A stretch of 64,000 bases of DNA, taken from Microvirga ossetica. GTDB taxonomy: Bacteria; Pseudomonadota; Alphaproteobacteria; Rhizobiales; Beijerinckiaceae. The DNA lies in contig NZ_CP016616.1 in the NCBI RefSeq assembly GCF_002741015.1, forward strand, positions 4,125,501-4,189,500. Direction: 5' to 3'. Each line of letters opens with the position of its first letter. Positions within the stretch are counted from its first letter, which is position 1. The position numbers and the translations under genes are program-made. This document shows positions 23,956 to 60,757 of this stretch, one piece after another. Under the pieces are notes generated by a model. The model had not been told where the DNA came from. It saw nothing but the letters and a program-made list of their open reading frames with translations, and ran no database searches.

Positions 23956-23988
23956 GAAAGGCTCCGATGCTCGTCATCGGAGCCTTTC
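23956..23988. terminator. Bidirectional terminator overlapping the cyclase 3' end
   Basis: GAAAGGCTCCGATG (23956-23969), loop CTCGT, and exact complement CATCGGAGCCTTTC (23975-23988) form a 14-bp perfect stem with A/T-containing flanks. It lies between the convergent TPR and cyclase genes. The right arm encodes the cyclase's final residues (ERLR) and stop. Confidence 0.85.
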
Positions 23989-37038: not shown

Positions 37039-40000
37039 TGATCAAGACAATTCGCTCCCTCGCCCTCCTGTCCCTGATCGCCGCGGCCGCGCTCGTCGCC
37101 GTCTCGCTGATGGCCGGCCGCCCGAGCCAGGCGCAGAGCGACCAGGGCATCCTGGCAAGCCTGATCTCGCGTCTTCTCTCGACGCCGACCACGCAGGTCA
37201 CCATCGGCAGCATCGAGGGAGCCTTGTCCTCGAACGCCGTCATCCGCGATATCCGCATCGCGGACAAGGACGGCGTCTGGCTCAATCTCGACCGCGCCCG
37301 CCTGGTCTGGAGCCGCACGGCGCTGCTGCGCGGCCGCCTCCAGGTGGACGAGCTCACCGTCGACCGGCTTCAGATCCTGCGCCGCCCGCTGCCGGCCGAC
37401 GAGGCGGCACCTGTCTCCGACGAACCGATCCTGCCCGAACTGCCGGTCCGGGTGATCGTCGACCGCTTTACACTGCAGGAACTGGCCCTCGGCGAGCCGA
37501 TCCTCGGCACCGCAGCCCGGCTGTCGGCGCAAGGCTCCGCCCAGCTCGGCAACCCGTCCGAGGGGCTCGATCTCACCTTCGCGGCCCAGCGCCTCGACGC
37601 TCCGGGGCGGCTTTCCATCAATCTCGACTACGTGCCCCAGACGAACCGGCTGTCCCTGGAGCTGACGCATCAGGAACCCGCCGGCGGCATTGCAGCCCGG
37701 CTGATGGATCTGCCCGGGCTGCCGCCGGTCGATCTCAAGCTGTCCGGCCAGGGCCCGATGAGCAATTTCGCCGCACGGCTCGATTTCTCGGCCGGGCCGA
37801 CCATCGGCGCCGCAGGCACCGCCACCGTCAGGCGGGCGACCTCCGCCTACGACGTGAACGTGGATCTCGCCTCCCGCATCGAAGGGCTGCTGCCGGCTCC
37901 AGCTGCGCCGATCTTCAGCGGCACCACCCAGCTCGTCGGCAACGTGACCGTCGGCGACGACAGCAGCCTGCGCTTCCAGCCGGTCCGCATCACGTCGAAT
38001 GTCGCAAGCTTCGACATGACGGGAACCGTCAGCTCCGGCCAGGTTCTCGACCTGAAGCTCAATGCCCGGGCGCTGCCTACCGACGGGACGAAGACACGGG
38101 CAGGGGAGGCGGAGATCGCCCGGCTCAACTTCGACGGCACGGTTCAGGGACCGCTGACCGCGCCGCGCGTCAACGGAACGCTCGACGCCGCGGAGGTCAG
38201 GCTGCCCCAGGGCTCGCTCGATGCCCTGAGGGCTCGCGTGGCCATGAACCCGGTGGCAGGCGTCACGCCGCCCGACCGCTTCTCCTTCGAGATCGACGCC
38301 AATGCCAACGGGATCAGGCCCGCCGATCCGGCTCTCGCCCGGGCGCTCGGCACGACGCTGTCCGTCACATCCCGCGGCTCCTTCGATCTCGAGGGCATCG
38401 CCAGCGTCGAGACGGCGCGCATCGAGACCTCCACCGCGCAGGCGGGTTTCACGGGAAGGGTCGGCAGCACCGTTCTCGACGGGACGCTTGAGGCGAGCAT
38501 TCCTTCGCTCTCATCGTTTTCCGGACTTGCCGGCCGTGCGTTGCGAGGGTCGGCCAACGTCTCGGCGCGGCTGTCGGGCAACCCGCGGCGCTACGACATG
38601 GCGGCCGTCATCGATGCCAGCCTGCGGGATCTGTCGACCGGAACGCCGGCCGTCGATGGCCTTCTAGGCCGCACTGTCACGGCCGCAGGCACGCTGCGTC
38701 GCATTCCCAATGGCTTCGCGTTCGAGAACATGCGTGTCGACGGCGCTCATCTCGATACCCGCATCGACGGCCGCGCCACGCAATCGGCCGCGGATCTCGG
38801 CCTCGACGTCACCATCGACGAGCTGAGGCAGGTCGATCCGCGCATCACCGCCGGCCGGGCCGGCATCGCCGCCCGTCTGTCGGGCTCTCTCGAACGGCCG
38901 AATGTGACCGGTGCCGCGACCCTGACCGACATGCGGGCCCTTGGCCGGTTCATCCCACGCCTCGTGGTCAATCTCGACGCCAAGGATGTGACGGGCGCGC
39001 TCGATGCGACGCTCACCCTCGATGGTCAGGTCGACGGCAAGCCCGCAACGGGCTCGCTTCATCTGGCAAGGCCGGCCGATGGAGGCTGGCTCCTCGACCG
39101 GCTCGATGTGGATGTCGGTTCGGTGGCGCTCAACGGCAATCTCCAGCTGGGCGCGGACCAGCTGGCGCAGGGCGAAATCTCGCTGTCCGGCAGCAACTTC
39201 GACGATCTGAGCCCCCTCGTGCTGATGAAGCTCGAGGGAGCGCTCGATGCGAAGGTCTCTCTCAGCGCGTCGAACGGTGGCCAGGATGCGCTGGTCACCG
39301 CGCGCGGAGCCCGCTTCGGGGCTTCCGATATCGCCGTCCGAAACTTCGAGACGAGGTTGACGCTTCAGGACTTGTATCGCCGCCCGATGATCGATGGCCT
39401 CGTCTCCGCCGAAGCCCTGACGGCTGCCGGCCAGACCTATCGCAACATCCGCTTCGTTGCCCAGGGCACGCCCGAAGCATCACGCTTCACCGCGTCGGCC
39501 GTTGGCCAGGGCTTCGATCTCGATGCGCAAGGCCGCCTCGTTCCCGGCGATGCGACGCGGATCGAGTTGGCGAGCTTCACGGCGCGTCGCGGCGGCCGGC
39601 GCCTGTCGCTGGCCCAGCCAGCATCCATCGCCTTGCAGAGCGGCACCGTCACCCTGTCCAATGTGGTGATCGCGGCGGATCAGGGCCGGGTGGCCGTATC
39701 GGGCACCATCGGTGACAGGCTCGACCTCTCCGTCGACATCCGCAGCCTGCCGCTTCAGATCGCGGAGATCGTGGTTCCCAATCTCGGCTTGGCCGGCACG
39801 GTCAACGGCAATGCGTCGGTGGGAGGAACCACGGCGAATCCGACCGGAACCTACCGCCTTAACGTCACGGGCCTCGCCACCGCGCAGACGCGGCAATCGG
39901 GCCTGCCGCCGCTGAACATCGATGCACAGGGACGGCTGGCCGATCGCCGTGCGAGCATCGATGCGCGCGTGGCTCTCGGGAGAGCCGGCACGCTTCAGAT

Positions 40001-41339
40001 CTCCGGCAGCGTTCCGATCGATCCGACCGATGAGATGGCGCTCAGGATTTCGGGACGAACCGACCTTGCCATCGCCAACACCATGCTCTCGTTGTCCGGG
40101 CAGCGCGTGACAGGAGCCGCCAATCTCGATCTGTCGGTTGCGGGCACCTTCTCGAGCCCCCGTGTCCAGGGCACGGTGACGATTGCCAATGGCAGCTTCG
40201 TCGACTCGCTGCAGGGCGTCCAGCTGAACGGCATCGCGGCCCGGCTTTCAGCACGCGGGCAGGTGCTCGCCATCGAGAGCCTGACGGCGCAGACGCCGAA
40301 CGGCGGGTCGCTTTCGGCGCGAGGGCAGGTCACGCTCGATCCTGCCGCCGGTCTGCCGGGCGACATCCGCATCACGGGAAGCCGCGCGCAGCTCGTTTCC
40401 AACGAGACGGTCGAGGCGAGCGCGGATTTGAACCTCGCCATTTCCGGCCCGCTTCTGACGCGGCCGCGGGCCTCGGGCAACATCAACATCATCACGATGA
40501 GCGTTTCAGTTCCCGACCGTCTGCCGACGACCTTAAGGCCGCTGCCAGGAACCAGGCATGTCCGCCCGACGCCGACAGCCGCCGCGCGGCTGGCGCTCGC
40601 GCGGCGCCAGCAATCGGCCGCGACCCAGGGCAGGCCTTTCCGTGCCGATCTCGATCTGACGGTGACCGCGCAGAACCGCATCTTCGTGCGCGGACGTGGC
40701 ATCAATGCGGAACTCGGCGGCGATCTGCGTCTCCAGGGTACGACGCAGGATCCGATTGCCATCGGCGCCTTCGAATTGCGGCGCGGTCGCTTCGACATCC
40801 TCGGCAAGCGTCTCGATTTTGTCCGCGGTCGGCTGGATTTCACGGGCGATCTCACGCCGTCGCTCGACTTCCTGGCCGAGACCCAGGCTGGCGACGTTAC
40901 TGCGCGGATCGGGGTGACGGGCCCGGCCTCACGGCCGGAATTCACCTTCAGCTCCGAGCCCTATCTGCCTCAGGACGAGGTCCTCTCGCGCATCCTGTTC
41001 CAGCGGCCGTCCGGCGGGCTGTCCGCCGGGCAGGCCCTGCAGCTCGCTCAAGCCGTCGCGCAGCTCTCCGGCGGATCGGGGAACGACGCCTTCGAGCGCC
41101 TGCGCCGCTCTCTCGGCGTCGACAGCCTCGACATCACGGTCGGTGCCGGCGGCGGGCCGGAGGTCGGTGTCTCGCGCTATATCAGCGACAACGTCCGCGT
41201 GGGCGTGCGAGCCGGTGCCCTGCCCGAGGACAGCGGCGTGACCGTTGACGTCGACCTGACCCGTCGCCTGAAGGCGCAGGGCGAGGTGAATGCGGAGGGC
41301 GGCACCTCCATCGGGCTGGGCTTCGAGCTGGAATACTAA
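37038..41339 (+). CDS. tamB: Translocation/assembly module protein TamB
   Basis: A 1433-residue envelope-spanning protein. The N-terminal helix (about 7-27, SLALLSLIAAAALVAVSLMA) anchors it in the inner membrane. A very long beta-rich periplasmic region of repeated amphipathic strands follows, like AsmA/VPS13-type lipid-transfer grooves. The C-terminal DUF490/TamB domain (about 1090-1433) includes the family block FELRRGRFDILGKRLDFVRG and DLTPSLDFLAET, and it ends in a YDS-like aromatic (FELEY). It is translationally coupled to tamA. It may also move phospholipids to the outer membrane, as proposed for TamB-class proteins. Confidence 0.93.
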   Translation: MIKTIRSLALLSLIAAAALVAVSLMAGRPSQAQSDQGILASLISRLLSTPTTQVTIGSIEGALSSNAVIRDIRIADKDGVWLNLDRARLVWSRTALLRGRLQVDELTVDRLQILRRPLPADEAAPVSDEPILPELPVRVIVDRFTLQELALGEPILGTAARLSAQGSAQLGNPSEGLDLTFAAQRLDAPGRLSINLDYVPQTNRLSLELTHQEPAGGIAARLMDLPGLPPVDLKLSGQGPMSNFAARLDFSAGPTIGAAGTATVRRATSAYDVNVDLASRIEGLLPAPAAPIFSGTTQLVGNVTVGDDSSLRFQPVRITSNVASFDMTGTVSSGQVLDLKLNARALPTDGTKTRAGEAEIARLNFDGTVQGPLTAPRVNGTLDAAEVRLPQGSLDALRARVAMNPVAGVTPPDRFSFEIDANANGIRPADPALARALGTTLSVTSRGSFDLEGIASVETARIETSTAQAGFTGRVGSTVLDGTLEASIPSLSSFSGLAGRALRGSANVSARLSGNPRRYDMAAVIDASLRDLSTGTPAVDGLLGRTVTAAGTLRRIPNGFAFENMRVDGAHLDTRIDGRATQSAADLGLDVTIDELRQVDPRITAGRAGIAARLSGSLERPNVTGAATLTDMRALGRFIPRLVVNLDAKDVTGALDATLTLDGQVDGKPATGSLHLARPADGGWLLDRLDVDVGSVALNGNLQLGADQLAQGEISLSGSNFDDLSPLVLMKLEGALDAKVSLSASNGGQDALVTARGARFGASDIAVRNFETRLTLQDLYRRPMIDGLVSAEALTAAGQTYRNIRFVAQGTPEASRFTASAVGQGFDLDAQGRLVPGDATRIELASFTARRGGRRLSLAQPASIALQSGTVTLSNVVIAADQGRVAVSGTIGDRLDLSVDIRSLPLQIAEIVVPNLGLAGTVNGNASVGGTTANPTGTYRLNVTGLATAQTRQSGLPPLNIDAQGRLADRRASIDARVALGRAGTLQISGSVPIDPTDEMALRISGRTDLAIANTMLSLSGQRVTGAANLDLSVAGTFSSPRVQGTVTIANGSFVDSLQGVQLNGIAARLSARGQVLAIESLTAQTPNGGSLSARGQVTLDPAAGLPGDIRITGSRAQLVSNETVEASADLNLAISGPLLTRPRASGNINIITMSVSVPDRLPTTLRPLPGTRHVRPTPTAAARLALARRQQSAATQGRPFRADLDLTVTAQNRIFVRGRGINAELGGDLRLQGTTQDPIAIGAFELRRGRFDILGKRLDFVRGRLDFTGDLTPSLDFLAETQAGDVTARIGVTGPASRPEFTFSSEPYLPQDEVLSRILFQRPSGGLSAGQALQLAQAVAQLSGGSGNDAFERLRRSLGVDSLDITVGAGGGPEVGVSRYISDNVRVGVRAGALPEDSGVTVDVDLTRRLKAQGEVNAEGGTSIGLGFELEY

Positions 41340-46667: not shown

Positions 46668-47348
46668 TTACGCGCTGAAGAGTTCGGGATGCTCCGCCTC
46701 GACCCGGGGCAGGGCGCGTAGGATTTCCGTAAGATGCCGGCGCATGGCCTCCGCAGCGGCCTCCTCGTCACGGCTGTCGATGGCGGCGACGATGGCGCGA
46801 TGCTGATCGATCAAGGGCAGCATCGCTTCGGGGCCGGGGAGGGTGAGCTGGCACACCCGGTCCATATGGGCCTTGATGTCCTGCACCGCCTCCCACGCCA
46901 GGGGGCAGCCCGCGCCCTCGGCCAGAGCGATGTGGAAGAGCTCGTCGTAGCGCTGGAAGGCCGCATGGTCGTCCCGCCTCGCAGCGTTGTCCTGCATCTC
47001 CAGGAGATCGTCGATCCGCTCCCGGCTCTGCTGGTCGAATGACAAGCAGGCGCGGCGCACGACCGCCGTCTCGATCGCCTCGCGGACGAACCGGGCCTCC
47101 ATCATCTTGCGCACCGAAATCTTGACCACCGTCGTGCCGCGCTGGGGCTGAATTTCCACGAGACGCGTCCGGGCGAGCCCGATCAGCGCCTCGCGGACAG
47201 GCTGGCGGGAAACCCCATGGCGCTCGGCGATGTCCTGCTCAGACAGCCGGCTTCCGGGCGGAAGCTCCAGCGCGATGATCAGGCGGCGCAGCTCGGTTTC
47301 GATGCGCTGGGCTGCGGAGCCTTGGACGACGGGGAAGGGCGTGTTCAC
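46668..47348 (-). CDS. GntR-family regulator (FadR/FCD type), likely uronate-responsive
   Basis: A 226-residue repressor. The winged HTH (about 12-75) has LSEQDIAERHGVSRQPVREALIGL. The FCD ligand domain (about 85-215) has metal-site Asp/His residues: D and H in YDELFHIALAEGAG, H in LIDQHRAIVAAID and H in RRHLTEI. Such regulators often sense sugar acids. It is divergent from the TRAP/kdu operon, so it probably controls uptake and breakdown of unsaturated uronates. A TGTAT-N6-ATACA element lies 42 bp upstream. Confidence 0.92.
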   Translation of the reverse strand: MNTPFPVVQGSAAQRIETELRRLIIALELPPGSRLSEQDIAERHGVSRQPVREALIGLARTRLVEIQPQRGTTVVKISVRKMMEARFVREAIETAVVRRACLSFDQQSRERIDDLLEMQDNAARRDDHAAFQRYDELFHIALAEGAGCPLAWEAVQDIKAHMDRVCQLTLPGPEAMLPLIDQHRAIVAAIDSRDEEAAAEAMRRHLTEILRALPRVEAEHPELFSA

Positions 47349-47389
47349 GGGCGGATCTCATTCTTTAGACGGGTTGCATCATATATAAG

Positions 47390-47405
47390 TGTATACTACC
47401 ATACA
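47390..47405. promoter_or_regulatory. TGTAT-N6-ATACA, candidate GntR operator in the gntR/TRAP gap
   Basis: TGTAT (47390-47394) and ATACA (47401-47405) flank ACTACC, embedded in an AT-rich stretch (ATATATAAG) unlike the surrounding sequence. FCD-type GntR proteins bind short symmetric sites with T/G-A/C arms. It lies between the divergent regulator and transporter genes and could control both. Confidence 0.5.
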
Positions 47406-47543
47406 AGGGTCGACCAGTTAAGCCGCAGCAAGCGGCACCTGGTCCCGCTCCAAGGGCCGGCAAGGTTCTCAGAGCGCAGGACAGACCGGCAAAGACCGGG
47501 CCTGAAACAACAAAGCAACAGAGGAAAGCTTAAGGAGGATATG

Positions 47544-48524
47544 ATGGTAACCAAAAGAACCCTCGCCGCTGCCGCCCTTGGACTATGGACGGCCCTTATA
47601 AGTGGCACAGCCGGGGCCCAGACGACACTGCGCTCCGCCGATATTCACCCGGATGGGTATCCGACTGTCGAGGCGGTAAAATATTTCGGCTCGCTCCTCG
47701 AGAAGAAGACCAACGGCCGATACAAGATCCAGGTGTTCCATTCCGCGCAGCTCGGCCAGGAGAAGGACACGATCGAGCAGACCCGCTTCGGCGTCATCGA
47801 TCTGAACCGGATCAATATGGGCCCGTTCAACAACCTGATTCCTGAGACCCTGGTGCCCTCGCTGCCGTTCATCTTCCGGTCGGTCGACCACATGCGCAAG
47901 ACCGTGGACGGCCCGATCGGCGATCAGATCCTGAAGGCCTTCGAGCCGCACGGGCTCGTCGCGTTGGCCTTCTACGATTCGGGTGCACGCTCGTTCTACA
48001 ACTCCAAGCGCACCATCAACACGCCGGCTGACCTCAAGGGCATGAAGGTCCGCGTGATCCAGTCGGATCTCTTCCTCGACATGGTGAACGCGCTCGGCGC
48101 CAATGCGACGCCGATGCCTCCGGGTGAGGTCTATTCCGCGCTGCAGACCGGCGTGGTCGACGGTGCCGAGAACAACTGGCCGAGCTACGATTCCTTCCGC
48201 CATTTCGAGGTGGCGAAATTCTACTCGCTGACCGAGCATTCCATGTCTCCGGAAGTGCTCGTCATGTCGAAGAAGAGCTTCGACAAGATGTCCCCCGAGG
48301 ACCAGAAGGCAGTGCGCGAGACGGCAAAGGAATCCGTCGCGAAGATGCGCGAGCTCTGGGAGGCGCGCGAGAAGGAAGCCGAAAAGAAGATCCGGGCGAG
48401 CGGCAGCCAGATCAACAATGTCGACAAGCAGCCCTTCATCGACGCCATGAAGCCGGTCTACGAGAAGTATGCCAAGGACGCGAAGGTGAAGGAGCTCGTC
48501 TCCCGCATCCAGGCGATGAACTGA
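47544..48524 (+). CDS. TRAP transporter periplasmic binding protein (DctP family)
   Basis: A 326-residue exported protein with signal peptide MVTKRTLAAAALGLWTALIS and a cut at AGA-Q. The DctP fold is clear: QLGQEKDTIEQTRFGVIDL, then LKGMKVRVIQSDLFLDM, whose Arg in KVRV usually clamps the ligand carboxylate, and the GVVDGAENNWPSY block. With dctQM and kdu genes downstream, the ligand is probably an unsaturated uronate or oligomer. Tandem ATGs occur at 47541 and 47544; the second is better spaced after AAGGAGG. A 9-bp hairpin follows the gene. Confidence 0.94.
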   Translation: MVTKRTLAAAALGLWTALISGTAGAQTTLRSADIHPDGYPTVEAVKYFGSLLEKKTNGRYKIQVFHSAQLGQEKDTIEQTRFGVIDLNRINMGPFNNLIPETLVPSLPFIFRSVDHMRKTVDGPIGDQILKAFEPHGLVALAFYDSGARSFYNSKRTINTPADLKGMKVRVIQSDLFLDMVNALGANATPMPPGEVYSALQTGVVDGAENNWPSYDSFRHFEVAKFYSLTEHSMSPEVLVMSKKSFDKMSPEDQKAVRETAKESVAKMRELWEAREKEAEKKIRASGSQINNVDKQPFIDAMKPVYEKYAKDAKVKELVSRIQAMN

Positions 48525-48547
48525 GCCGAATAAGGCACATGCTGTAA

Positions 48548-48569
48548 CGGACCGGCTGAGGCCGGTCCG
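48548..48569 (+). promoter_or_regulatory. Intercistronic hairpin after the TRAP binding-protein gene
   Basis: CGGACCGGC (48548-48556), loop TGAG, and GCCGGTCCG (48561-48569) form a perfect 9-bp stem 23 bp after the stop. No poly-T tract follows (CCTCTTGT). Likely a 3' mRNA-stabilising or partially terminating element setting binding protein above permease levels. Confidence 0.7.
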
Positions 48570-48597
48570 CCTCTTGTCCCACTGGAGACTGCTTTCG

Positions 48598-49137
48598 ATG
48601 CGCGCCGAACTTGCCGCGCTGTCCCGGATTCTGGCCGTCGTGAACAGAGCGGCCCTGTGGATCGCCGGGATCGGCCTCGTTCTCATGACCGTCTTCGTTG
48701 CCTGGCAGGTGTTCGGGCGCTACGTGCTGAACCAGTCGCCGAGCTGGACCGAGCCGGCCTCCCTGCTGCTCATGAGCTGGTTCATCCTGCTCGGCTCCGC
48801 CGTCGGCGTGCGCGACGGCAATCATCTCGGCTTCGAGATCGCTCTCCATTATGCGCCGCACGGCCTGCGCCAGATCATGCTCGGTGTGACCGAGATACTG
48901 GTGATGATCTTTGGCGGGGCCATGTCATGGTACGGCACGTTGCTGGCCGTCGAGACCTGGTCGGCGCTGATGCCGGGTCTGCCGATCCCGCAAGGGTTCG
49001 ATTATGTCCCTCTCGCCGTGGGCGGTCTTCTGATCGCGCTTTTCTCTCTCGAGAAATTCATTCGTCTGCTGCTCGTCGGCGAAGATGTCCCGATGGTGCG
49101 CGTGGATGAGCCCCATCTCGTTGCCGTGAAGGATTGA
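48598..49137 (+). CDS. TRAP transporter small permease (DctQ family)
   Basis: A 179-residue four-helix membrane subunit. The first helix is IAGIGLVLMTVFVAWQVFGRYVL, followed by the DctQ hallmark NQSPSWTEPASLLLMSWFILLG and GVRDGNHLGFEIAL. It bridges the binding protein and the large channel. The ATG at 48598 follows GGAGA at suitable distance; an upstream in-frame start at 48574 lies too near the hairpin. The large permease gene starts 4 bp after its stop. Confidence 0.92.
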   Translation: MRAELAALSRILAVVNRAALWIAGIGLVLMTVFVAWQVFGRYVLNQSPSWTEPASLLLMSWFILLGSAVGVRDGNHLGFEIALHYAPHGLRQIMLGVTEILVMIFGGAMSWYGTLLAVETWSALMPGLPIPQGFDYVPLAVGGLLIALFSLEKFIRLLLVGEDVPMVRVDEPHLVAVKD

Positions 49138-49141
49138 TGTC

Positions 49142-50422
49142 ATGGAGATTTGGGTTCTCTTCGGCGTCTTCACGCTCCTGCTCATTATCGGAACGCCGGT
49201 CGCGTTCTGCCTCGGCATCGCGTCTCTGGCGACGATTCTCTATATGCAGCTGCCGCCGATCGTTGTGTTCCAGCAGCTCAATTCCGGCATGAACGCCTTT
49301 GCCATGATGGCGATCCCGTTCTTCATCTATGCCGGCGATCTGATGATGCGCGGTGGCATCGCCGACCGCCTGATCCGCCTCGCCGCCGGCCTGGTGGGCC
49401 ACCTTCGCGGCGGCTTGGGGCAGGTGAACGTCGTCGCTTCGACGCTGTTCGGTGGCATCTCCGGCTCCGCGATCGCGGATGCCTCCGCCATCGGCGGCAT
49501 CATGATCCCGCAGATGGAAAAGCGGGGCTATGCCAAGGACTACAGCGTCAACGTCACGGTGAATGCGGCCATCATCGCGCTGCTCATCCCGCCGTCCCAC
49601 AACATGATCATCTATTCGATCGCGGCAGGCGGCACGATTTCGGTCGCGGACCTGTTCACGGCCGGCATCGTCCCCGGCTTTCTGCTGGCGGCGGCCCTCA
49701 TGATCACAGCCTACGTGGTCGCCGTGCGCCGCGGCTACCCGGCCGATCCGTTCCCCGGCTTCCGGATGCTCGGCTACTTCCTGGTCTCGGCCGTGCCGGG
49801 CATCCTGCTCATTTTCATCATTTTCGGCGGGGTTCGCTCCGGCGTCTTTACGGCAACCGAGAGCTCCTGCATCGCTGTCGTCTACGCCCTGCTCGTCACG
49901 CTCTTCGTCTATCGCGAGATGAACTGGGAGAGCTTCGTCGAGGCGACCCTTGGTGCCGTGCGCACCACCGCCATGGTTCTCCTGGTCATCGGCACCGCCA
50001 GCGCGTTCGGGTGGCTCATGGCCTTCCTGCAGGTGCCGCAGGCAACCATCGCTCTCATGAAGACGCTGTCGGACAACCCGATCGTCGTCCTCCTGCTCAT
50101 CAACGTCATCCTGTTGGTCCTCGGCACCTTCATGGACATGGCGCCGATGATCATCATCTGCACGCCGATCTTCCTGCCCGTGATCAAGGCGTTCGGCATC
50201 GACCCGGTGCATTTCGGGGTGATCCTGATCCTCAATGCCGGCATCGGCCTCAACACCCCGCCGGTGGGCTCGGTGCTCTTCGTCGGCTGCGCGGTCGGCA
50301 AGATCACCATCGGTGAAGCCATGAAGACGATCTGGCCGTTTTTGGGAGCCAGCGTCCTGGTGCTGCTTCTCGTCACCTACATCCCTGGCCTGTCGCTCTG
50401 GCTCCCCGCCCTTTTCCGCTGA
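49142..50422 (+). CDS. TRAP transporter large permease (DctM family)
   Basis: A 426-residue Na+-coupled permease with about 12 helices. Conserved blocks include AMMAIPFFIYAGDLMMRGGIADRL, GQVNVVASTLFGGISGSAIADASAIGG (GGISGSAIADASAIG), IPPSHNMIIYS, and the C-terminal counterpart LNAGIGLNTPPVGSVLFVG. The paired GGISGS/NTPPVG re-entrant loops form the transport site. It is the third gene of the operon; kduI begins 23 bp further. No frameshift is seen. Confidence 0.94.
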   Translation: MEIWVLFGVFTLLLIIGTPVAFCLGIASLATILYMQLPPIVVFQQLNSGMNAFAMMAIPFFIYAGDLMMRGGIADRLIRLAAGLVGHLRGGLGQVNVVASTLFGGISGSAIADASAIGGIMIPQMEKRGYAKDYSVNVTVNAAIIALLIPPSHNMIIYSIAAGGTISVADLFTAGIVPGFLLAAALMITAYVVAVRRGYPADPFPGFRMLGYFLVSAVPGILLIFIIFGGVRSGVFTATESSCIAVVYALLVTLFVYREMNWESFVEATLGAVRTTAMVLLVIGTASAFGWLMAFLQVPQATIALMKTLSDNPIVVLLLINVILLVLGTFMDMAPMIIICTPIFLPVIKAFGIDPVHFGVILILNAGIGLNTPPVGSVLFVGCAVGKITIGEAMKTIWPFLGASVLVLLLVTYIPGLSLWLPALFR

Positions 50423-50445
50423 TCTTCGTCATTCAAGAGGCTCTC

Positions 50446-51282
50446 ATGACCATCGACATCCGGCAGGTATGCCACCCTGAGGCCGTCCGCCATTTCAGCA
50501 CGGCGGACCTGCGCCGCCACTTCCTGATCGAGCAGCTGTTCGTTCCCGGAGAGATCAAGCTGACCTACAGCCATATCGACCGGCTGGTGGTGGGCGGCGC
50601 AACGCCGCTTGCGGGGGCCATCAAGCTCGACTCGCACAAGCAGATCGGCTCGCCGAATTTCCTGGATCGGCGCGAGATCGGCATCGTCAATCTGGGCGGC
50701 GCCGGGCGCGTCCATACGGATGGCGAGATCCACAATCTCGGGCCTCGCGATGCCCTTTACGTCGCCATGGGCACGAAGGATGTGCGGTTCGAGAGCCTTG
50801 ATGCGGCAACGCCGGCGAAATTCTATCTCGTCAGCACGCCGGCTCATGCCCGCTTCGAGACGGTGAAGATCGGCCTCGATCGCGCCCGCCGCGTCGACCT
50901 GGGCGATGCGGCGAACGGCAATGTCCGCACCATCTTCCAGATGATCCATCCGGAGGTTTGCCGCTCGGCCCAGCTCGTCCTCGGCATGACGCAGCTCAAG
51001 CCGGGCAGCATGTGGAATACCATGCCAGCACATCTGCACGACCGCCGCTCCGAAGTTTACGTCTATTTCGACATGCAGCCCGACACGCGTGTGTTCCATC
51101 TCATGGGCGAGCCGAACGAGACGAAGCATCTCGTTGTCGCCAACGAGCAGGCGATCCTCTCGCCCGGCTGGTCGATCCATTCCGGTGTCGGCACGAGCAA
51201 TTATGCCTTCGTCTGGGCCATGGGCGGCGACAACCAGGATTTTACCGATATGGATATGGTACCCATGGATGCCCTGCGTTGA
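50446..51282 (+). CDS. kduI: 5-dehydro-4-deoxy-D-glucuronate isomerase
   Basis: A 278-residue cupin enzyme converting 5-keto-4-deoxyuronate (DKI) to 2,5-diketo-3-deoxygluconate (DKII), a step in pectin and alginate catabolism. The zinc ligands fall exactly where E. coli KduI has them: H196 and H198 in HLHDRRSEVY, E203 in the same motif, and H245 in WSIHSGVG. The length also matches the family (278). It follows the TRAP permease and precedes kduD by ten bases. Confidence 0.96.
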   Translation: MTIDIRQVCHPEAVRHFSTADLRRHFLIEQLFVPGEIKLTYSHIDRLVVGGATPLAGAIKLDSHKQIGSPNFLDRREIGIVNLGGAGRVHTDGEIHNLGPRDALYVAMGTKDVRFESLDAATPAKFYLVSTPAHARFETVKIGLDRARRVDLGDAANGNVRTIFQMIHPEVCRSAQLVLGMTQLKPGSMWNTMPAHLHDRRSEVYVYFDMQPDTRVFHLMGEPNETKHLVVANEQAILSPGWSIHSGVGTSNYAFVWAMGGDNQDFTDMDMVPMDALR

Positions 51283-51292
51283 GAGGTTCGCA

Positions 51293-52051
51293 ATGACGCT
51301 CTCCTTCGATCTGACCGGCAAGACAGCCGTCGTGACTGGGGCCAATACCGGGCTCGGCCAGGCGATCGCAGTGGCCTTGGCGCAGGCCGGAGCATCCATC
51401 GTGGGGGTTGGCCGCTCGGCCATGGATGAGACCGAGCGGCTGTGCCGCGAGGCCGGTGCCCGCTTTCATGCCGTCCAGGCCGATCTGTCGACCCTCGAAC
51501 CGGTCGACCGCATCGTCACAGAGGCTATGTCGGCCGGCAGCCGGATCGACATCCTGGTCAACAATGCCGGCATCATCCGCCGCGCCGATGCCATCGAGTT
51601 CACGGAGAAGGATTGGGACGACGTGATGAACGTCAATCTCAAGTCGACGTTCTTCCTGTCCCAGGCGGCGGCGCGGACCATGCTGGCCGACGAGGGCGGG
51701 GGCAAGATCATCAACATCGCCTCGCTCCTCTCGTTTCAGGGCGGGATCCGGATTCCCTCCTATACGGCGAGCAAAAGCGGGCTGGCCGGTCTGACGCGGC
51801 TGCTCGCTTGCGAATGGGCGGCCAAGGGCATCAATGTGAATGCGATCGCGCCGGGATATTTCGTGACCAACAACACCGAGGCGCTCCGCGGCGATCCGAA
51901 GCGGAGCGGCGACATTCTCGCACGCATTCCTGCCGCCCGCTGGGGCGATCCGTCAGATCTCGGCGGGGCGGCCGTATTCCTGGCATCATCTGCGGCGAAT
52001 TACGTCCATGGTGTCGTGCTGCCGGTTGACGGCGGATGGCTGGCCCGCTGA
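51293..52051 (+). CDS. kduD: 2-dehydro-3-deoxy-D-gluconate 5-dehydrogenase
   Basis: A 252-residue short-chain dehydrogenase reducing DKII to 2-keto-3-deoxygluconate. It has the nucleotide site VVTGANTGLGQAIAVAL, NNAG (ILVNNAGIIRR), catalytic Ser in NIASLLSFQGG and YTASKSG with Tyr and Lys. The C-terminal AVFLASSAANYVHG then VVLPVDGGW is typical of SDRs. The ATG at 51293 lies after GAGAGG. KDG kinase and aldolase needed to complete the pathway are not in the window. Confidence 0.95.
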   Translation: MTLSFDLTGKTAVVTGANTGLGQAIAVALAQAGASIVGVGRSAMDETERLCREAGARFHAVQADLSTLEPVDRIVTEAMSAGSRIDILVNNAGIIRRADAIEFTEKDWDDVMNVNLKSTFFLSQAAARTMLADEGGGKIINIASLLSFQGGIRIPSYTASKSGLAGLTRLLACEWAAKGINVNAIAPGYFVTNNTEALRGDPKRSGDILARIPAARWGDPSDLGGAAVFLASSAANYVHGVVLPVDGGWLAR

Positions 52052-52419: not shown

Positions 52420-52805
52420 CGAAACCCAGTCGCTAACGACGGGTCATATCAACCTGGACCTCCTTCCGATTTCCGTGCCGACCGGTGCCTGGGACATTCG
52501 CTTGCCCGGGTTGTATTCCGCTGCGTAATGTAACCTCGTGATTTGTAAGTCACTCCCTCGAAATTTTCCTGCCCATTGGAGTGTCGGGCGTCACACCAGT
52601 CTGGGCGACACGACGGCTAGAGGATACAAAGTATCACTACTCGCGAGCGCCGCGCAAAAATTTTAACCCTCCGAAACTTTCTGCCCTTGAAATGCGTTAC
52701 ATAGGGTCGAATTCCATCCGAAGACGAACAAAGTACCTTTTGGGACGTCGGCATATGGGGATCCAGGCAGGAGAGTTGGCCTGGAACAGCGTAACGGGGG
52801 GCCTT
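52420..52805. other. 386-bp region upstream of the poly-HAMP kinase
   Basis: No independent gene is seen. It carries the promoter region of the kinase operon and follows kdgF with no clear terminator. The frame of the kinase is open from 52581, but codons before 52806 do not resemble a protein domain (basic, cysteine-free, low-complexity), so they are treated as untranslated. An alternative start ATG lies at 52755. Confidence 0.45.
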
Positions 52806-55800
52806 ATGTCACAAGTCGAAACTGCCGCTTTGCAGCTTAATCCTAAGCTGCTTCTCAAGACATTGCGTGCCTTTCGAAAAGGCGATTTCTCGGCCCGCCT
52901 GCCGTCGGATCTCACCGGCATCGAGGGCGAGATCGCGGAAGCGTTCAACGATATTGCCGATCTGAATCAAGGCCTTGCGCGCGAGCTCGAGCGGGTCGCG
53001 AAGGTCGTCGGCAAAGAGGGACGCATCGAGGAGCGAGGGCGGCTCGCAGCCGCGACCGGATGCTGGAGCGAATGTGTCGACTCCGTCAATGCGATGATCG
53101 GCGACCTCGTTCAGCCGACCACCGAAGTGGCGCGCGTGATCGGTGCCGTGGCGAAGGGCGATCTCAGCCAGACCATCGATCTCGAAACCGACGGACGCCC
53201 CCTGCGCGGCGAGTTCCTGCGCATCGGCAAGGTCGTGAACACCATGGTCGGGCAGCTTGGAAGTTTTGCCTCGGAGGTGACCCGTGTGGCCCGCGAGGTC
53301 GGCTCCGAAGGCAAGCTCGGTGGCCAGGCGAAGGTCAAGGGCGTTGCCGGCACGTGGAAGGACCTGACGGAAAACGTCAACCTCATGGCCGCGAACCTGA
53401 CCGGCCAAGTGCGCAACATCGCCGAGGTCACCACGGCGGTCGCGAATGGCGACCTTTCCAAGAAGATCACCGTCGATGTCAAAGGCGAGATCCTGGAGCT
53501 GAAGGACACCATCAACACCATGGTGGACCAGCTGAACTCCTTCGCCTCCGAAGTGACGCGTGTGGCGAAGGAGGTGGGCACCGAAGGCAAGCTCGGTGGC
53601 CAGGCGCAGGTACGCGGCGTGGCCGGCGTCTGGAAGGATCTCACCGACAACGTGAACATGATGGCGGCCAACCTCACCGGTCAGGTCCGTAACATCGCCG
53701 AGGTCACCACGGCCGTCGCCCGAGGAGATTTGTCCAAGAAGATTACCGTGGATGTGAAGGGCGAGATTCTGGCCCTCAAATCCACGATCAATACGATGGT
53801 GGACCAGCTCAACTCCTTCGCCTCGGAAGTGACACGCGTGGCGAAAGAGGTGGGCTCCGAGGGCAAGCTCGGAGGACAAGCGCAGGTCGAAGGCGTCGGC
53901 GGCACCTGGAAGGATCTGACCGAGAACGTGAACATGATGGCGGCGAACCTGACGGGTCAGGTCCGTAACATCGCCGAGGTCACCACCGCGGTCGCGAACG
54001 GCGACCTTTCCAAGAAGATCACCGTGGAGGTGCGCGGGGAGATCCTGGAGCTGAAGAACACCATCAACACCATGGTGGACCAGCTGAACTCCTTCGCCTC
54101 CGAGGTGACGCGCGTGGCGAAGGAGGTGGGCTCAGAGGGCAAGCTCGGCGGACAGGCCCAGGTGCGCGGCGTCGCGGGAACCTGGAAGGATCTGACCGAC
54201 AACGTGAATCTGATGGCCGCCAACCTAACGGGGCAGGTCCGCAACATCGCAGAGGTCACGACCGCGGTCGCGAATGGAGATTTGTCGAAAAAGATCACCG
54301 TGGAAGTGCGCGGCGAGATCCTTGAGCTGAAATCCACGATCAACACCATGGTGGACCAGCTCAATTCCTTCGCGGGCGAAGTGACGCGCGTCGCGAAGGA
54401 AGTGGGTTCTGAGGGCAAGCTCGGCGGACAGGCTCGGGTGGAGGGTGTTGCCGGCACCTGGAAGGATCTCACCGACAACGTGAACCTGATGGCCGCGAAT
54501 CTGACAGGTCAGGTGCGTAACATCGCCGAGGTGACCACGGCGGTGGCGAACGGCGACCTCTCCAAGAAGATCACCGTCGATGTCCGCGGTGAGATTTTGG
54601 AGCTCAAATCGACCATCAACACCATGGTGGATCAGCTCAACTCCTTCGCAGGCGAGGTGACGCGTGTGGCGCGCGAAGTCGGCACCGAAGGCAAGCTCGG
54701 CGGCCAGGCGCAGGTGCGCGGCGTCGGCGGCGTCTGGAAGGATCTCACCGATAACGTCAATATGATGGCCGCAAATCTGACAGGTCAGGTGCGTAACATT
54801 GCGGAAGTCACTACCGCAGTGGCGAACGGCGACCTCTCTAAGAAAATTACGGTGGCTGTCGAAGGCGAAATTCTGGAGCTGAAATCCACGATCAACACCA
54901 TGGTGGATCAGCTCAACTCCTTCGCAGGCGAGGTGACGCGTGTGGCGCGCGAAGTCGGCACCGAAGGCAAGCTCGGCGGCCAGGCGCAGGTGCGCGGCGT
55001 CGGCGGCGTCTGGAAGGATCTCACCGATAACGTCAATATGATGGCCGCAAATCTGACAGGTCAGGTGCGTAACATCGCCGAGGTGACCACGGCGGTGGCG
55101 AATGGCGACCTCTCCAAGAAGATCGCCGTCGATGTCCGGGGTGAGATTCTCGAGCTGAAATCGACGATCAACACCATGGTGGATCAGCTCAACTCCTTCG
55201 CATCCGAAGTGACGCGCGTGGCGCGCGAAGTCGGCATCGAAGGCAAGCTCGGCGGCCAGGCGCAGGTACGCGGCGTCGGCGGAACGTGGAAGGACCTGAC
55301 CGACAACGTCAACATGATGGCGAACAACCTCACCGGTCAGGTGCGCGGCATCGCCAGCGTCGTGACGGCGGTTGCGGAGGGCGATCTCAAGCGCAAGTTG
55401 ACCGTGGACGCCAAGGGCGAGATCGCGGCACTCGCCGAGACCATCAACGAGATGATCGACACGCTCGCGACCTTCGCCGATCAGGTGACGAACGTGGCCC
55501 GCGAAGTGGGTGTCGAGGGCAAACTCGGTGGACAGGCGAGGGTGCCAGGTGCTGCGGGCTTGTGGCGTGACCTCACCGACAACGTGAACCAGCTCGCCGC
55601 CAACCTGACCACGCAGGTGCGAGCGATCGCCGATGTGGCCACCGCCGTGACCAAGGGCGACTTGACGCGGTCGATTTCGGTCGAGGCTTCGGGCGAGTTG
55701 GCGTCGCTGAAAGACAACGTCAACGAAATGATCCGCAACCTGCGCGATACGACGCTCAAGAACGCTGAACAGGATTGGCTCAAGACCAATCTCGCCAAGT

Positions 55801-58655
55801 TCACGCGGATGCTGCAGGGCGAGCGCGATCTCACCACCGTATCGAACATGATCCTGTCCGAGATCGCTCCGCTGGTGAATGCCCAGCAGGCCGTTTTCTA
55901 CACGGTCGAGGCCGATGGCAGCGGGCCGGTGCTGGAGATGGTGGCATCCTATGCCTTCACGGAGCGGAAGCATCTCAGCAACCGCTTCCGCCTCCGCCAA
56001 GGGCTGGTCGGTCAGGTAGCTTACGAGAAGAAGCGCATTCTCCTTACCAATGTGCCGGGCGATTATATCACCATCGGTTCTGCCCTCGGCGAGGCGCCGC
56101 CGCTCAACATCATCGTGCTGCCGGTGCTGTTCGAGCAGGAGGTGAAAGCGGTGATCGAGCTGGCCTCGTTCAGCCGCTTCTCGGAGGCGCACCAGTCCTT
56201 CCTGGAGCAGCTGACGGAATCGATCGGCATCGTTCTCAATACGATCGCGGCGAACATGCGCACGGAAGGCCTGCTGAAACAGTCTCAGCTTCTGACCACG
56301 GAACTCCAGAGCCAGCAGGAAGAGTTGAGGAACACCAACGACCGGCTGGAACAGCAGGCGGCGACGCTTCGCCAATCGGAAGAGCTCCTGCGCCAGCAGC
56401 AGGAGGCGCTCCAGAAGACCAACGAAGAGCTCGAGGACAAGGCGCGCCTGCTCGAGCTTCAGAAGCGGGAAGTGGAGACGAAGAACCAGGAAGTCTCGGT
56501 CGCAAAGACAGCTCTGGAGGAGAAGGCGGAGCAGCTCTCGCTGACGTCGCGCTACAAGTCGCAGTTCCTGGCCAATATGAGCCACGAATTGAGGACGCCG
56601 CTGAACTCTCTCCTCATTCTCTCAAAGCTTCTGACGGAGAACTCCGACGGTAATCTTACCGATAAGCAGCGGGAATTTGCCAAGACGATACACGCCGCAG
56701 GCTCCGATCTCCTCGCGCTGATCAACGATATCCTGGATCTGTCCAAGATCGAATCCGGCACGGTGAGCCTCGAGGTGTCGAGCGTGGGATTCAGGGATCT
56801 CGTCGACAACATGGACCGCACCTTCCGCCAGATCGCGGAAGAGCGAAAGCTCGAGTTCCATGTCGAGGTCGATCCCAAGCTGCCGCTGGCGATCAGGACG
56901 GATTCGAAGCGGCTGCAGCAGGTGCTGCGCAATCTGTTGTCGAACGCCTTCAAGTTCACGGAACGCGGCGGCGTGACGCTTCAGATCGGATCGGCCGAAG
57001 GATCGCCGCTGCGATCCGGCAGCAAGTGGATTGCCATGTCGGTGACCGACACGGGCATCGGCATCCCGGAGGACAAGCTGCGCATCATCTTCGAAGCATT
57101 CCAGCAGGCCGATGGCACCACGAGCCGGAAATATGGCGGAACCGGCCTCGGATTGTCGATCAGCCGAGAGATCGCCCGTCTTCTCGGCGGCGAGATCGTG
57201 GTGTCGAGCACGCCCGGAAGCGGTTCGACCTTCACGCTGTTCGTGCCCGTGGAACCGCCTGCAAGCCACGGGCTGCCGGGGGGCGGAGCGACCGCGCGGC
57301 CGAACGGCGATGCCGTGGGATACTATGCCGGAACCGAGGACGCGTCGGGATCGATGCTCCGCCAGCCTTCGGCAGCGATGGCGCTTTCCGCATCGCTCGA
57401 CGACCGCCATGCGATCACCAATGGCGACAGGATCGTCCTCATCGTCGAGGACGACGCGATGTTCGCCTCCGTCTTGCTGGAACTCGCGCGCGAGGAGGGG
57501 TTCAAGGGCCTCATCGCCATGGACGGGGCCTCCGCGCTGGCGCTCGCGCACCGCTACAAGCCGCATGCCGTGACCCTCGATATCGGATTGCCCGACATGG
57601 ATGGTTGGGCGCTTCTCGACCTGTTGAAGCACGATCCGCGCACCCGTCATGTGCCGATCCATGTGATCTCGGTGGACGATCAGAAGAAGCGCGGTCTTAA
57701 GGCCGGTGCCTTCGGCTTCCTTGAGAAGCCTGTGGATCGGGAAGCGCTCATGGGCGCTCTCAACCGGACGAAGGAGTTCATCGACCGGCCGGTGAAGAAG
57801 CTGCTCCTCGTAGAGGATGACGACAATCAGCGCATGAGCCTGTCCGAACTCATGAAGGACGAACAGGTCGATGTCACCGCCGTGGGAACGGCCGAGAGTG
57901 CGCTCGAGGTCATTGCCGCACGGCATTTCGATTGCGCCATCGTCGATCTTGGCCTCCCCGACCTTCCGGGAACGGAACTCATCGAGCGCATCCGCACGAC
58001 CAAGGGCGGTGCGGAACTGCCGATCGTGATCTATACGGGGCAGGACCTCACGAAGGCTGAGGAACGCCGGCTGCAGAGTATTGCGGCGACCCTTATCGTC
58101 AAGGGCGAAGGCTCGCCGGAGCAGCTCCTCAACGATACGGCGCTGTTCCTGCACCGCGCGATCAGCGCCATACCCGAGGAAAAGCACATCATTGTGGAGC
58201 GGCGCGCCGACAACTCCCTCGACGGACGCAAGGTTCTGATCATTGACGATGACATGCGCAACATCTTCTCGCTCACGAGCGCGTTGGAGCAGCATGGAAT
58301 ATCGGTCATCTTCGCGGAAAACGGCCTGGAGGGGATCGAAAAGCTGCAGGCCAATCCCGACGTCGACGTGGCTCTGGTTGATATCATGATGCCGGAGATG
58401 GACGGCTATGAGACCATGCAGGCGATCCGCAGGATTCCGCGATACGAAGATATGCCGCTTGTTGCGGTCACAGCGAAGGCTATGAAGGGGGACAGGGAGA
58501 AGTGTATCGAGGCCGGCGCCACGGACTACGTGTCGAAGCCTGTGGATGTCGATCAACTTCTCGCGGTCTTGCGCGTTCAACTGAGCCGGAGCACATATAT
58601 ACCTGATGGAAAGGTTGCTCCCAACGGCGCGGCAGAGACCGGGTTGAACTCATGA
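52806..58655 (+). CDS. Giant poly-HAMP hybrid histidine kinase (HAMP array-GAF-HisKA-HATPase-three receivers)
   Basis: A 1949-residue soluble-looking sensor kinase without evident membrane helices. Residues about 1-990 form a HAMP array: an opening divergent unit, then about ten 92-residue units, each a pair of HAMP-like modules ([34 protein letters not shown]). Next come GAF (about 1008-1150), a long coiled coil rich in Gln/Glu (1153-1245), HisKA with phospho-acceptor H1260 in NMSHELRTP, HATPase (about 1360-1480; [16 protein letters not shown]), and receivers with D1592, D1714 and D1859. The layout recalls fungal group III (Nik1-type) osmosensing kinases. It overlaps the next kinase gene by ATGA. 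Start ATG at 52806 after GGGGGG is likely, not certain. Confidence 0.93.
53394..55325 (+). repeat. Seven tandem 276-bp repeats encoding HAMP pairs
   Basis: In-frame direct repeats start at 53394, 53670, 53946, 54222, 54498, 54774 and 55050, each opening with codons for [17 protein letters not shown]. Divergent units flank them: one of 97 codons at 53103, one at 55326, and a partial one at 55602. The exact 276-bp period is maintained without indels. Units at 54498 and 54774 share 185 identical bases across the junction (54615-54799 and 54891-55075). Confidence 0.95.
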
Positions 58656-60757
58656 CGGACGACGTGAGGCAGGAGGCTTCAAGCGTGAACCCGGACGCGT
58701 TTCGTCTGGTCTCGGCTCGACCTCTCTCCGACCCGATTGCGGCCAAGATCCTTGTGGTCGACGACGATCCCCGGAATCTCATCGCCGTCGAGGAGGTGCT
58801 GCGGTCTCCGGGGGTCGAGATCGTGACGGCGGATTCGGGCGAATCTGCCCTGCGCCATGTTCTCAACCATGACTTCGCCGTCATTCTTCTCGACGTGCAG
58901 ATGCCGCGGCTCGACGGCTATGAGGTCGCCAGCCTGATCAGGAACCGGCCGCGCTCGTCGCGTGTGCCGATCCTTTTCCTGACTGCCTTCAACAAGGACG
59001 ATATGCATGTCTTCAAGGGATACTCGGCCGGTGCGGTCGATTATGTCTTCAAGCCTATCGAGCCTCTGATCCTGAAATCGAAGGTCGATATTTTCGTCGA
59101 TCTCTACCGGAAGACCGAGGAGATCCGGCGGCAGGCTGAGCAGGAGCGCCGTCTGCTGATGGACAACCTGCATGTCCGCAGTGAGAAGCTGAAGGCGGAG
59201 CAAGCTCTGCGCCGTCGCGAGGAGCATCAGTCGATCGTGCTGCAGTCGCTGCCGATCGCTCTCTATACCGCGTCGGTCGGCGACGATCGGAAACTTCATT
59301 TCACCAATGAAAGCGTCGAGCGAATCACCGGGTTCGCACCGGATTCCTTTCTAGAGAGTCCGGATTTCTGGGCGTCCCGGATCAATCCCGAGGACCGCGA
59401 CCGCGTGCTTGCGCAACTCCGGCACCTGGGAGAGGAGGGGGGCGTCAATCTCGAGTATCGCTGGCGCTGCGCCGACGGCGTCGAGCGGCATTTCCTCGAT
59501 CAGATGGTTCTTACGCGTGACGACGATGGCTCGCCCCATGAGTCCTTCGGAATGTGGTTCGATATCACCGAGCGCAAGCAGATGGAGCAGAACCTGCTCC
59601 ATGCCAGCAAGCTGGAAGCCGTCGGCCGTCTGACCGGCGGCATCGCTCACGATTTCAACAATATGCTGAGCGTCGTGATCGGCAATCTCGATCTTCTGAA
59701 GAAATCCATTCAGGGGAACGAGAAGGCCGAGCGGCGCGTGCACATGGCGCTGGAGAGCGCGCAGCATTGCGCCGATCTCACCTATCGACTGCTCACCTTC
59801 TCACGGCGCCAGGCATTGCAGATATCGACTATCGATGTGACCGGCCTGATGCCGAGCCTTCTCGAACTGATGCGTAGGACGCTCGGCGAGAACGTCCGTG
59901 CGAGCTTCCAGGCCGGCGAGAGCGTCTGGCCGATTCAGGTCGATCGCGCTCAGCTCGAGGCCGCTCTTCTGAATCTGGCCGTCAATGCCCGCGACGCGAT
60001 GCCCGATGGCGGCGATCTGATCATCGCCGTCGAGAACCGAGTGATCGAGGATGGACGATCGGCTCCGAGCGGCGAGTTCGTCGTGATATCCGTGAGCGAT
60101 ACCGGAACCGGCATGCCGCCGGAGGTGCTCGAGAAGGTCTTCGAGCCGTTCTTCACCACAAAGGAAAGCGGCAAGGGCACGGGGCTCGGCCTCAGCATGG
60201 TCTATGGTTTCGTTCAGCAATGCCATGGACATGTCGAAGTGGAGAGCGAGCCGAATGCGGGAACGACGATCCGCATCTTTCTGCCGCGGTCGCATGAAGA
60301 GCCGGAGAGTCTGTCGCTTGATCAAGCGGCTGTGGCCCATCCCTTCGGCAACGGGCGCACCGTGCTGGTGGTCGAGGACAATCCCGCCGTGCGGCAGGTT
60401 GCCCGTTCGACTCTCCACTCCCTCGGGTTCAAGGTGCTGGAAGCTGAAAACGGCGATGAAGCGGCAAACTTTCTGAAGTCGGGAAAGGACATAGACCTCG
60501 TCCTTTCCGACGTCCGGATGCCCGGTGAACTCAGCGGCATCGATCTCGCCCGCCTCGTGCATCGTGAAAAGCCGGAGATTCAGGTTCTTCTGACGACGGG
60601 ATACTTCGATAGCGAAGAGAAGCTCGAAGGGCTCAATCTTCTCTACAAGCCTTACCGTGCGAGCGACCTTGCCGAGAAGATCCAGTCATTGATGGAGCAA
60701 AGGCCGAATGTTGAGTTCGAGGATACGTCGTCGCGCCCGAAAGCCGCGGTAGCGTAG
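58652..60757 (+). CDS. Hybrid histidine kinase (receiver-PAS-HisKA-HATPase-receiver)
   Basis: A 701-residue kinase with an N-terminal receiver (about 32-150; D81 in VILLDVQMP), a coiled linker, PAS (about 190-310), HisKA of the NtrB-like type with H333 in [11 protein letters not shown], HATPase ([19 protein letters not shown]) and a C-terminal receiver (about 565-685; D620 in LSDVRMPG). The N-terminal receiver could take phosphate from the giant kinase, making the pair a phosphorelay. It overlaps the giant kinase stop by ATGA, so co-translation is expected. No DNA-binding output protein is encoded next to it. Confidence 0.93.

Follow-up and report, generated by a model that had tools for sequence, protein, structure and literature searches.

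A poly-HAMP hybrid histidine kinase of Microvirga ossetica and its bacterial relatives

Described poly-HAMP kinases and the Microvirga locus

Poly-HAMP chains are a known sequence cluster (PMC3570549; here and below, citations refer to the part of each paper available to us). Among fungi they are found in the group III (Nik1) histidine kinases, which have been called fungal-specific (PMC11253588): CaNik1 (PMC3848655), Bos1 (PMC3418262) and TcsC (PMC11253588) are cytoplasmic proteins that combine HAMP pairs with HisKA, HATPase and receiver (REC) domains, CaNik1 having four 92-residue pairs plus a single HAMP (PMC3848655). Fungal poly-HAMP kinases are needed for the action of fludioxonil-type fungicides, and soluble poly-HAMP sensing thus has practical weight.

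Bacterial examples are also in print. AskA and AskB of Myxococcus are group III-like kinases with HAMP arrays longer than that of NIK1, and AskC, encoded directly downstream of askB, binds both (PMC7643160). The tract of MXAN_6735 (AskB in PMC7643160) varies in length between Myxococcus genomes (PMC4603909). Together with Sorangium Amb07, these proteins have a known role in myxobacterial development and the response to ambruticin (PMC7643160).

The locus described here lies in the genome of M. ossetica, within a stretch of 64,000 nucleotides (the window). On a second contig of this genome, 3.7 kb (L002) show 98.3% identity to a plasmid from Microvirga sp. VF16. Its central gene encodes a bacterial poly-HAMP (group III-like) hybrid histidine kinase of 1949 residues, which starts with an ATG at 52806 (an alternative GTG at 52581 is possible). 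Since long-array bacterial kinases have been published (PMC7643160), the gene joins a large, already recognised family. The features of the kinase gene, and the gene that follows it, are:

52806..58655, + strand, poly-HAMP hybrid histidine kinase gene (reading frame, Pfam)
52833..53261, + strand, HAMPs C1, D1 and C2, the N-terminal part of the array, residues 10-152 (own-repeat profiles)
53262..55193, + strand, seven near-identical 92-residue HAMP pairs (D-C), residues 153-796
55194..55469, + strand, ninth pair, residues 797-888, 74-79% identical to the seven
55470..55745, + strand, last HAMP pair, more diverged, residues 889-980
55821..56237, + strand, GAF domain, residues 1006-1144 (Pfam)
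56238..56525, + strand, stretch between GAF and HisKA, residues 1145-1240, presumed helical
56556..56759, + strand, HisKA, residues 1251-1318, with SHELRTP at 1259 (Pfam, motif)
56901..57254, + strand, HATPase_c, residues 1366-1483, N-box and G-box motifs present (Pfam, motifs)
57432..58580, + strand, three receivers, at about residues 1543-1655, 1666-1785 and 1808-1925, aspartate motifs present
58652..60757, + strand, partner protein of 701 aa, REC-PAS-HisKA-HATPase-REC (Pfam)

The ATG of the partner overlaps the TGA of the kinase (ATGA at 58652), and catalytic motifs are found in the kinase, in its receivers and in the partner. The original prediction had been of about ten HAMP-pair units without a visible membrane helix, in a Nik1-like layout with a GAF domain, the kinase core and then three receivers, and each of these elements is borne out. 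Pfam recovers the domains; the repeats are HAMP-related, the whole protein scoring 305.5 bits against PF00672 (cut-off 25) and 276.2 bits against PF18947 (cut-off 24.3); and Pfam and the own-repeat profiles together give 21 HAMPs. Hydropathy reveals no stretch in residues 1-1000 hydrophobic enough for a membrane helix, and by this measure no hidden transmembrane or periplasmic sensor appears at the N-terminus, where the first HAMP starts at residue 10. A scan for sigma-70 promoters and terminators gave results below the shuffle means in both cases.

The window kinase shares with the fungal group III kinases a construction from HAMP pairs that repeat about every 92 residues. Compared by description, it differs from them in its bacterial host, its 21 HAMPs, its GAF domain and three receivers, its receiver partner encoded by an overlapping gene, and in having almost nothing before the first HAMP. 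To our knowledge, the Ypd1/Ssk1/HOG pathway is not to be expected in a bacterium. The likeness to the AskB-AskC pair, AskA and Amb07, likewise judged by description, lies in their being soluble hybrid kinases from bacteria, in the extended poly-HAMP region and, for askB, in a further hybrid kinase gene immediately downstream (PMC7643160). A receiver partner adjoining the kinase is thus common to the window and to askB-askC, this feature being one inferred in the present analysis rather than part of a published definition. Aer2 of Pseudomonas aeruginosa (3lnr; PMC3570549) resembles the kinase in being a soluble receptor with stacked HAMPs in differing conformers, but has three plus two HAMPs around a haem PAS and a chemoreceptor output (PMC3570549). 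The closest structures, PDB 9trk and 9trj ('histidine kinase,Gcn4p'), match residues 10-291 (E 1.9e-126) and share the same C1-D1-C2 start, including a loop of ten letters, but contain the first HAMPs only, fused to Gcn4p; a literature search did not find the paper behind 9trk. Searches of openly licensed papers, surveyed by title and abstract start, brought up no mention of a fixed pitch, the insert in C2, a conserved receiver partner or the conservation ranking given below, all of which may nonetheless have been described elsewhere.

Number, alternation and pitch of the HAMPs

Profiles built from the protein's own repeats place the 21 HAMPs (ten pairs plus one) at residues 10, 56, 102 and 153, and then every 46 residues up to 935. 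Two types alternate strictly (C-D-C-D...-C), where type C is the KGDL type (Pfam HAMP) and type D the EGKLGG type (HAMP_2); the letters are our own. At the DNA level the array is a 276-bp tandem repeat, and C2 carries an extra connector loop around GRPLRGEF. A predicted model contains a helix of 31-34 residues, half of which corresponds to about 2.5 nm per HAMP, and 21 HAMPs would then form a rod of roughly 50 nm. The array contains no cysteines other than those at residues 86 and 90 (53061-53075), both in the first D HAMP; in fungal Drk1, a HAMP cysteine matters for fludioxonil sensitivity (PMC6433957).

The organization of the array was compared with that of relatives. Within its own genome the array is the only one of its kind. 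An array match at 1e-60 is present in 30 of 61 genomes including its own (29 of the 37 from the genus, plus one other), and in 20 of 299 genomes spread over the phylum (again counting its own). A pattern scan of bacterial and archaeal genomes yielded at least 583 relatives among at least 590 stretches, the best 80 of which are the named loci used below. Titles among these best 80 of at least 583 include Methylobacterium, Azospirillum, Sphingomonas, Massilia and Pseudomonas, as well as Nostoc, Streptomyces, Nonomuraea, Flavobacterium and Chitinophaga, plus metagenome bins assigned to Acidobacteria, Verrucomicrobia, Gemmatimonadaceae, Gemmataceae, Fibrobacteres and Riflebacteria.

Of the 111 array-holding loci scanned, 19 did not enter the parity count because of split frames, N runs or contig ends. 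Two arrays, from Brevundimonas viscosa (L072) and a genus member (L142), are split over two frames and were left unjoined: these are either frameshifts or assembly errors in near-identical repeats. The complete arrays number 92: besides that of the window there are 23 from further members of the genus, 67 from named genomes and one from a relative in a different family of the order. All 92 contain an odd number of HAMPs, between 15 and 31, in the arrangement C(DC)n. For 88 of them this was obtained automatically; for the remaining four (L095, L064, L106 and L110) it was obtained after more sensitive models, built from the relatives' own first HAMPs, had found weak first repeats (in L095 the C2 model has no match and the C1 model marks the place of C2).

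The pitch is nearly invariant. Setting step 3 aside, the 88 automatically called arrays have 1690 steps, of which 1682 measure exactly 46 residues, four 45 and four 47. Step 3, which leads from the second C to the second D, exceeds this length in 87 of the 88 arrays, by five residues in 65 and by ten in 13, because of the insert in the C2 connector around GRPLxGEF. Types C and D have about 9% of residues in common (a low estimate, from an ungapped overlay starting at the model starts). Being so unlike, they leave recombination between like units to add or remove whole pairs, and the odd parity therefore needs no selection.

Array length, on the other hand, varies. Among the 67 named genomes (from the best 80 of at least 583), arrays contain 15 HAMPs in 20 cases, 17 in 2, 21 in 8, 23 in 18, 25 in 10, 27 in 4, 29 in 3 and 31 in 2. 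The comparison of unit counts across related strains that had been proposed with the original prediction gave 21 HAMPs in 22 of the 24 complete genus arrays and 17 in the other two, one of which (G029) is from a single-contig genome. The supposition that a bacterial array of ten pairs is exceptionally long did not survive: complete arrays of 15-31 HAMPs occur across many bacterial groups, and group III-like examples have been published (PMC7643160). The window gene is in this respect an ordinary family member with an array of ordinary length.

Changes in HAMP number were counted on a tree of the kinase core drawn from 75 of the 92 arrays (10 of the 25 from the window, genus and other-family set, and 65 of the 67 named). 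This quick tree requires at least 21 changes in HAMP number, compared to 40-48 in 50 label shuffles; before the long branch of L069 was dropped to leave 74 rows for the count, 30 of its 72 inner branches had less than 80% support. Array lengths follow lineage, yet change repeatedly, and do so by even numbers of HAMPs.

Conservation of the array and of other regions

One explanation for such an array is that it does not sense anything: sensing would fall to the GAF domain, and the HAMP rod would serve as a scaffold, spacer or dimerisation stem. If so, then the array – being a mere stem – is expected neither to match or exceed the conservation of the catalytic core nor to keep its exact alternation and pitch. 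Median identity to the window across 63 relatives is 82.6% for an interior unit and 80.4% for the last pair, compared to 77.8% for HisKA and 67.8% for HATPase; lower values were obtained for REC3 (62.7%), GAF (53.2%), REC1 (46.9%), the N-cap (45.8%), the GAF-HisKA stretch (43.8%) and REC2 (28.3%). Judged on 74 loci, the interior units have 56 positions out of 92 with at least 90% conservation, and 21 of these are polar or charged. Conservation of the array interior thus appears to equal or exceed that of the kinase, subject to a sampling bias: the loci were partly found through array peptides, so that conservation of the array across phyla is biased upward.

A less exposed check was provided by searching the draw of 299 genomes with the GAF-kinase part only. 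Matches were obtained in 73 genomes, including all 20 with an array. With the window's own genome set aside, the best kinase match has an identity of 62-70% in the 19 array genomes; in 11 of the 19 the alignment is confined to the kinase part, starting at about residue 199 of the query. The array rows of the array genomes in this draw are 61-93% identical, most of them above 80%.

Rates of substitution were estimated in 22 pairwise comparisons between the window and a relative, 21 of these relatives being members of the genus (medians given); the values are rough because dS is near 1. Within the array dN/dS is 0.029 for units 2-8, 0.024 for units 9-10 and 0.053 for the N-cap. Elsewhere it is 0.020 for the GAF-HisKA stretch, 0.049 for the kinase core, and 0.028, 0.071 and 0.042 for REC1, REC2 and REC3, respectively; within the genus set, the GAF-HisKA stretch and REC1 thus match the array in constraint. 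The GAF domain has the highest value of the nine regions (0.081), as might a ligand pocket adapting to differing signals, and GAF-HisKA-HATPase follows the array in 66 of the 67 relatives. Both observations favor the GAF domain as sensor, a reading that we nevertheless consider somewhat unlikely in view of the conservation and regularity of the stack.

The units do not stem from recent duplication, the mean pairwise dS among units 2-9 being about 0.90. Concerted evolution as the sole cause of their sameness was rejected as well. Identity among interior units within a protein exceeds their identity to the units of the window in only 44 of 87 proteins. When units were matched at the DNA level, however, the positional counterpart came out best in only 90 of 176 comparisons, which makes some exchange between units likely.

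Proposed input and outlet of the kinase

Kinases related through the GAF-HisKA-HATPase core fall into two groups, with an array or with TM-like segments. Thirty loci were fetched from about 108 match rows of the GAF-kinase search. Nine, including the window, have an array, and their visible part shows nothing TM-like (in eight of the nine array loci the frame runs to the locus edge and the N-terminus lies outside the view). In the remaining 21 the array is missing, and every one of them has a TM-like segment or several; by these HAMP models four of them have one HAMP and one has two. In these array-less relatives, whose GAF-kinase core is similar, the TM-like segments probably mark a separate membrane input, which again argues against the GAF domain as the common sensor. 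In the proteins with the 92 complete arrays, the region that extends from 40 residues ahead of the array to 40 residues past it is free of TM-like stretches, and in 45 of them (25 of the 67 from named genomes, outside the genus set) fewer than 50 residues of open frame precede the array. The alternation between array and TM-like segments, together with the short frame before the arrays, favors the view that the array takes the place of a membrane sensor.

The explanation that we prefer, and hold to be just on the probable side, is a soluble kinase/phosphatase switch in which the HAMP rod is the regulatory input and the receiver of the partner an outlet. The protein would be a hybrid histidine kinase, probably dimeric, with a rod of 21 stacked HAMPs of two alternating types; a change in the rod would alter the last HAMP, which, through the GAF domain and the helical stretch following it, would set the balance between kinase and phosphatase. 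Phosphate would then pass to the receivers within the kinase and also to the partner (58652-60757), at its first receiver; the partner would carry an output specific to the lineage, here a second PAS kinase. In line with the rod as input, deletion of all HAMPs from CaNik1 activates Hog1 without a stimulus (PMC3848655). Against it stand the GAF domain after nearly every array, which could itself be the sensor, and the poorly conserved N-cap, which is odd for a sensing tip.

The original prediction went further, taking the stack itself to be the input of an osmotic or mechanical relay. The first part is favored by the array-or-membrane pattern, the short frame before the arrays and the fungal deletion work (PMC3848655), but the GAF domain is a competing candidate, and the hyperosmotic response of Aspergillus TcsC needs 209 residues before its HAMPs (PMC11253588), which the window kinase does not have. 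The second part names the signal, and is compatible with the switch that we prefer: as in fungal Nik1, turgor, crowding or solutes would act directly on the HAMP stack. CaNik1 likewise has 92-residue pairs and an odd total, nine (PMC3848655), and a Myxococcus askAB double mutant did not respond to glycerol or ambruticin under growth conditions (PMC7643160). However, alongside the missing pre-HAMP residues, no osmotic-stress gene was recognised among the neighbours scanned or read (ten further window frames were scanned), and we regard an osmosensor as unlikely. A search of openly licensed literature found no paper joining HAMP, Methylobacterium and osmotic.

The receiver of the partner usually accompanies the array. 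A same-strand relative of the partner's first receiver is present in 73 of the 80 named loci (the best 80 of at least 583), 66 within 600 bp downstream, four further downstream (up to 6 kb) and three upstream; in six no such receiver was found, and L065 could not be scored. These receivers score at least 112 bits, compared to at most 84 for other receivers in the same loci and 75 for the next best in the M. ossetica genome. Genus loci with the partner receiver number 28; a single one (L145) does not have it, but this locus stops at the edge of its contig, and another piece from that genome (L148 of G033) has the partner receiver. In Myxococcus, Rec3 of AskA interacts with the receiver of AskC in a two-hybrid test (PMC7643160). 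The Pfam Hpt model has three matches in the genome, all in frames of 685-935 aa, so that no stand-alone Hpt relay was seen. Three loci, from Duganella (L063), Noviherbaspirillum (L046) and Massilia (L116), have the partner receiver upstream of the kinase, that of L063 being fused to GGDEF-EAL.

While the receiver is shared, what is attached to it differs. Ten partners scanned are HisKA, HisKA_3 or HWE kinases, a GGDEF-EAL protein (L063) or a receiver alone (L074 and L097), and PAS is present in only four of them (L047, L050, L051 and L059). This variation bears on the possibility that the partner, through its PAS domain here, senses the signal and that the long kinase integrates it. AskC bound ambruticin whereas purified AskA and AskB did not (PMC7643160), which suggests that a partner may sense, and the conserved neighbourhood would accord with such a role. 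A common sensor, however, should not vary or vanish as the partners do, and the KD of AskC for ambruticin is about 300 uM when 4 nM is effective in vivo (PMC7643160); we therefore find the partner a quite improbable sensor.

An even less probable role, to which we attach very little weight, is binding of the array to DNA, by which the kinase would act at the nucleoid or at promoters. This has been proposed for AskB, which binds the mrpC promoter in vitro, and partial matches to SpoIIID and HTH_6 over the HAMPs are reported for AskA and AskB (PMC7643160) and recur in the window kinase. In the latter, the whole array scores 41 bits for SpoIIID (cut-off 27) and 25 bits for HTH_6 (cut-off 28.3), but neither cut-off is reached by any single stretch, and unrelated helical families add up in the same way (FliE, 26.6 bits with a cut-off of 22.4; GatB_Yqey; DUF948), so that these matches are probably an artefact of the repeats. 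The net charge of residues 10-985 is -14, which also argues against DNA binding.

Returning to the rod as input, a broader form of that idea can be put forward tentatively, as a possibility taken as a whole. The stacked-HAMP rod would itself be the sensory organ and a widespread bacterial input cassette, made up of an N-terminal cap whose second type-C HAMP has the conserved extra loop (around GRPLxGEF), a variable count of almost frozen D-C pairs, and a final pair that would plug into GAF-kinase cores otherwise run by membrane sensors. One dedicated receiver would serve it, with the output swapped by lineage (kinase, HWE kinase, GGDEF-EAL or receiver alone). As pair number follows lineage and changes by whole pairs, it would tune the response rather than create it. 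The fungal Nik1 kinases might then be a eukaryotic branch of the same device. What stands out in the family is a stack that seems conserved at least like the kinase, usually beside the same kind of receiver protein. Its natural length variants (15-31 HAMPs), near-fixed pitch, odd loop and linked receiver, a possible readout, make the idea of the stack as sensor testable in harmless soil bacteria.

Other features of the window were noted in passing. A general-stress promoter pattern has no match near the kinase gene; its single match in the window, at 24068-24094, where 1.5 are expected by chance, falls inside the frame of a protein with CHASE2 and adenylate/guanylate cyclase domains (23974-25860, - strand). 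Just upstream of the kinase, 47217-52051 carries TRAP transporter genes (DctQ, DctM) and KduI, with DctP-like and SDR-like proteins recognised by eye, and looks like an operon for hexuronate uptake and breakdown. At 35008-41339, an Omp85/POTRA protein followed by a TamB protein of 1433 aa forms a TamA-TamB pair, accompanied by a local rise in GC to 67-68%.
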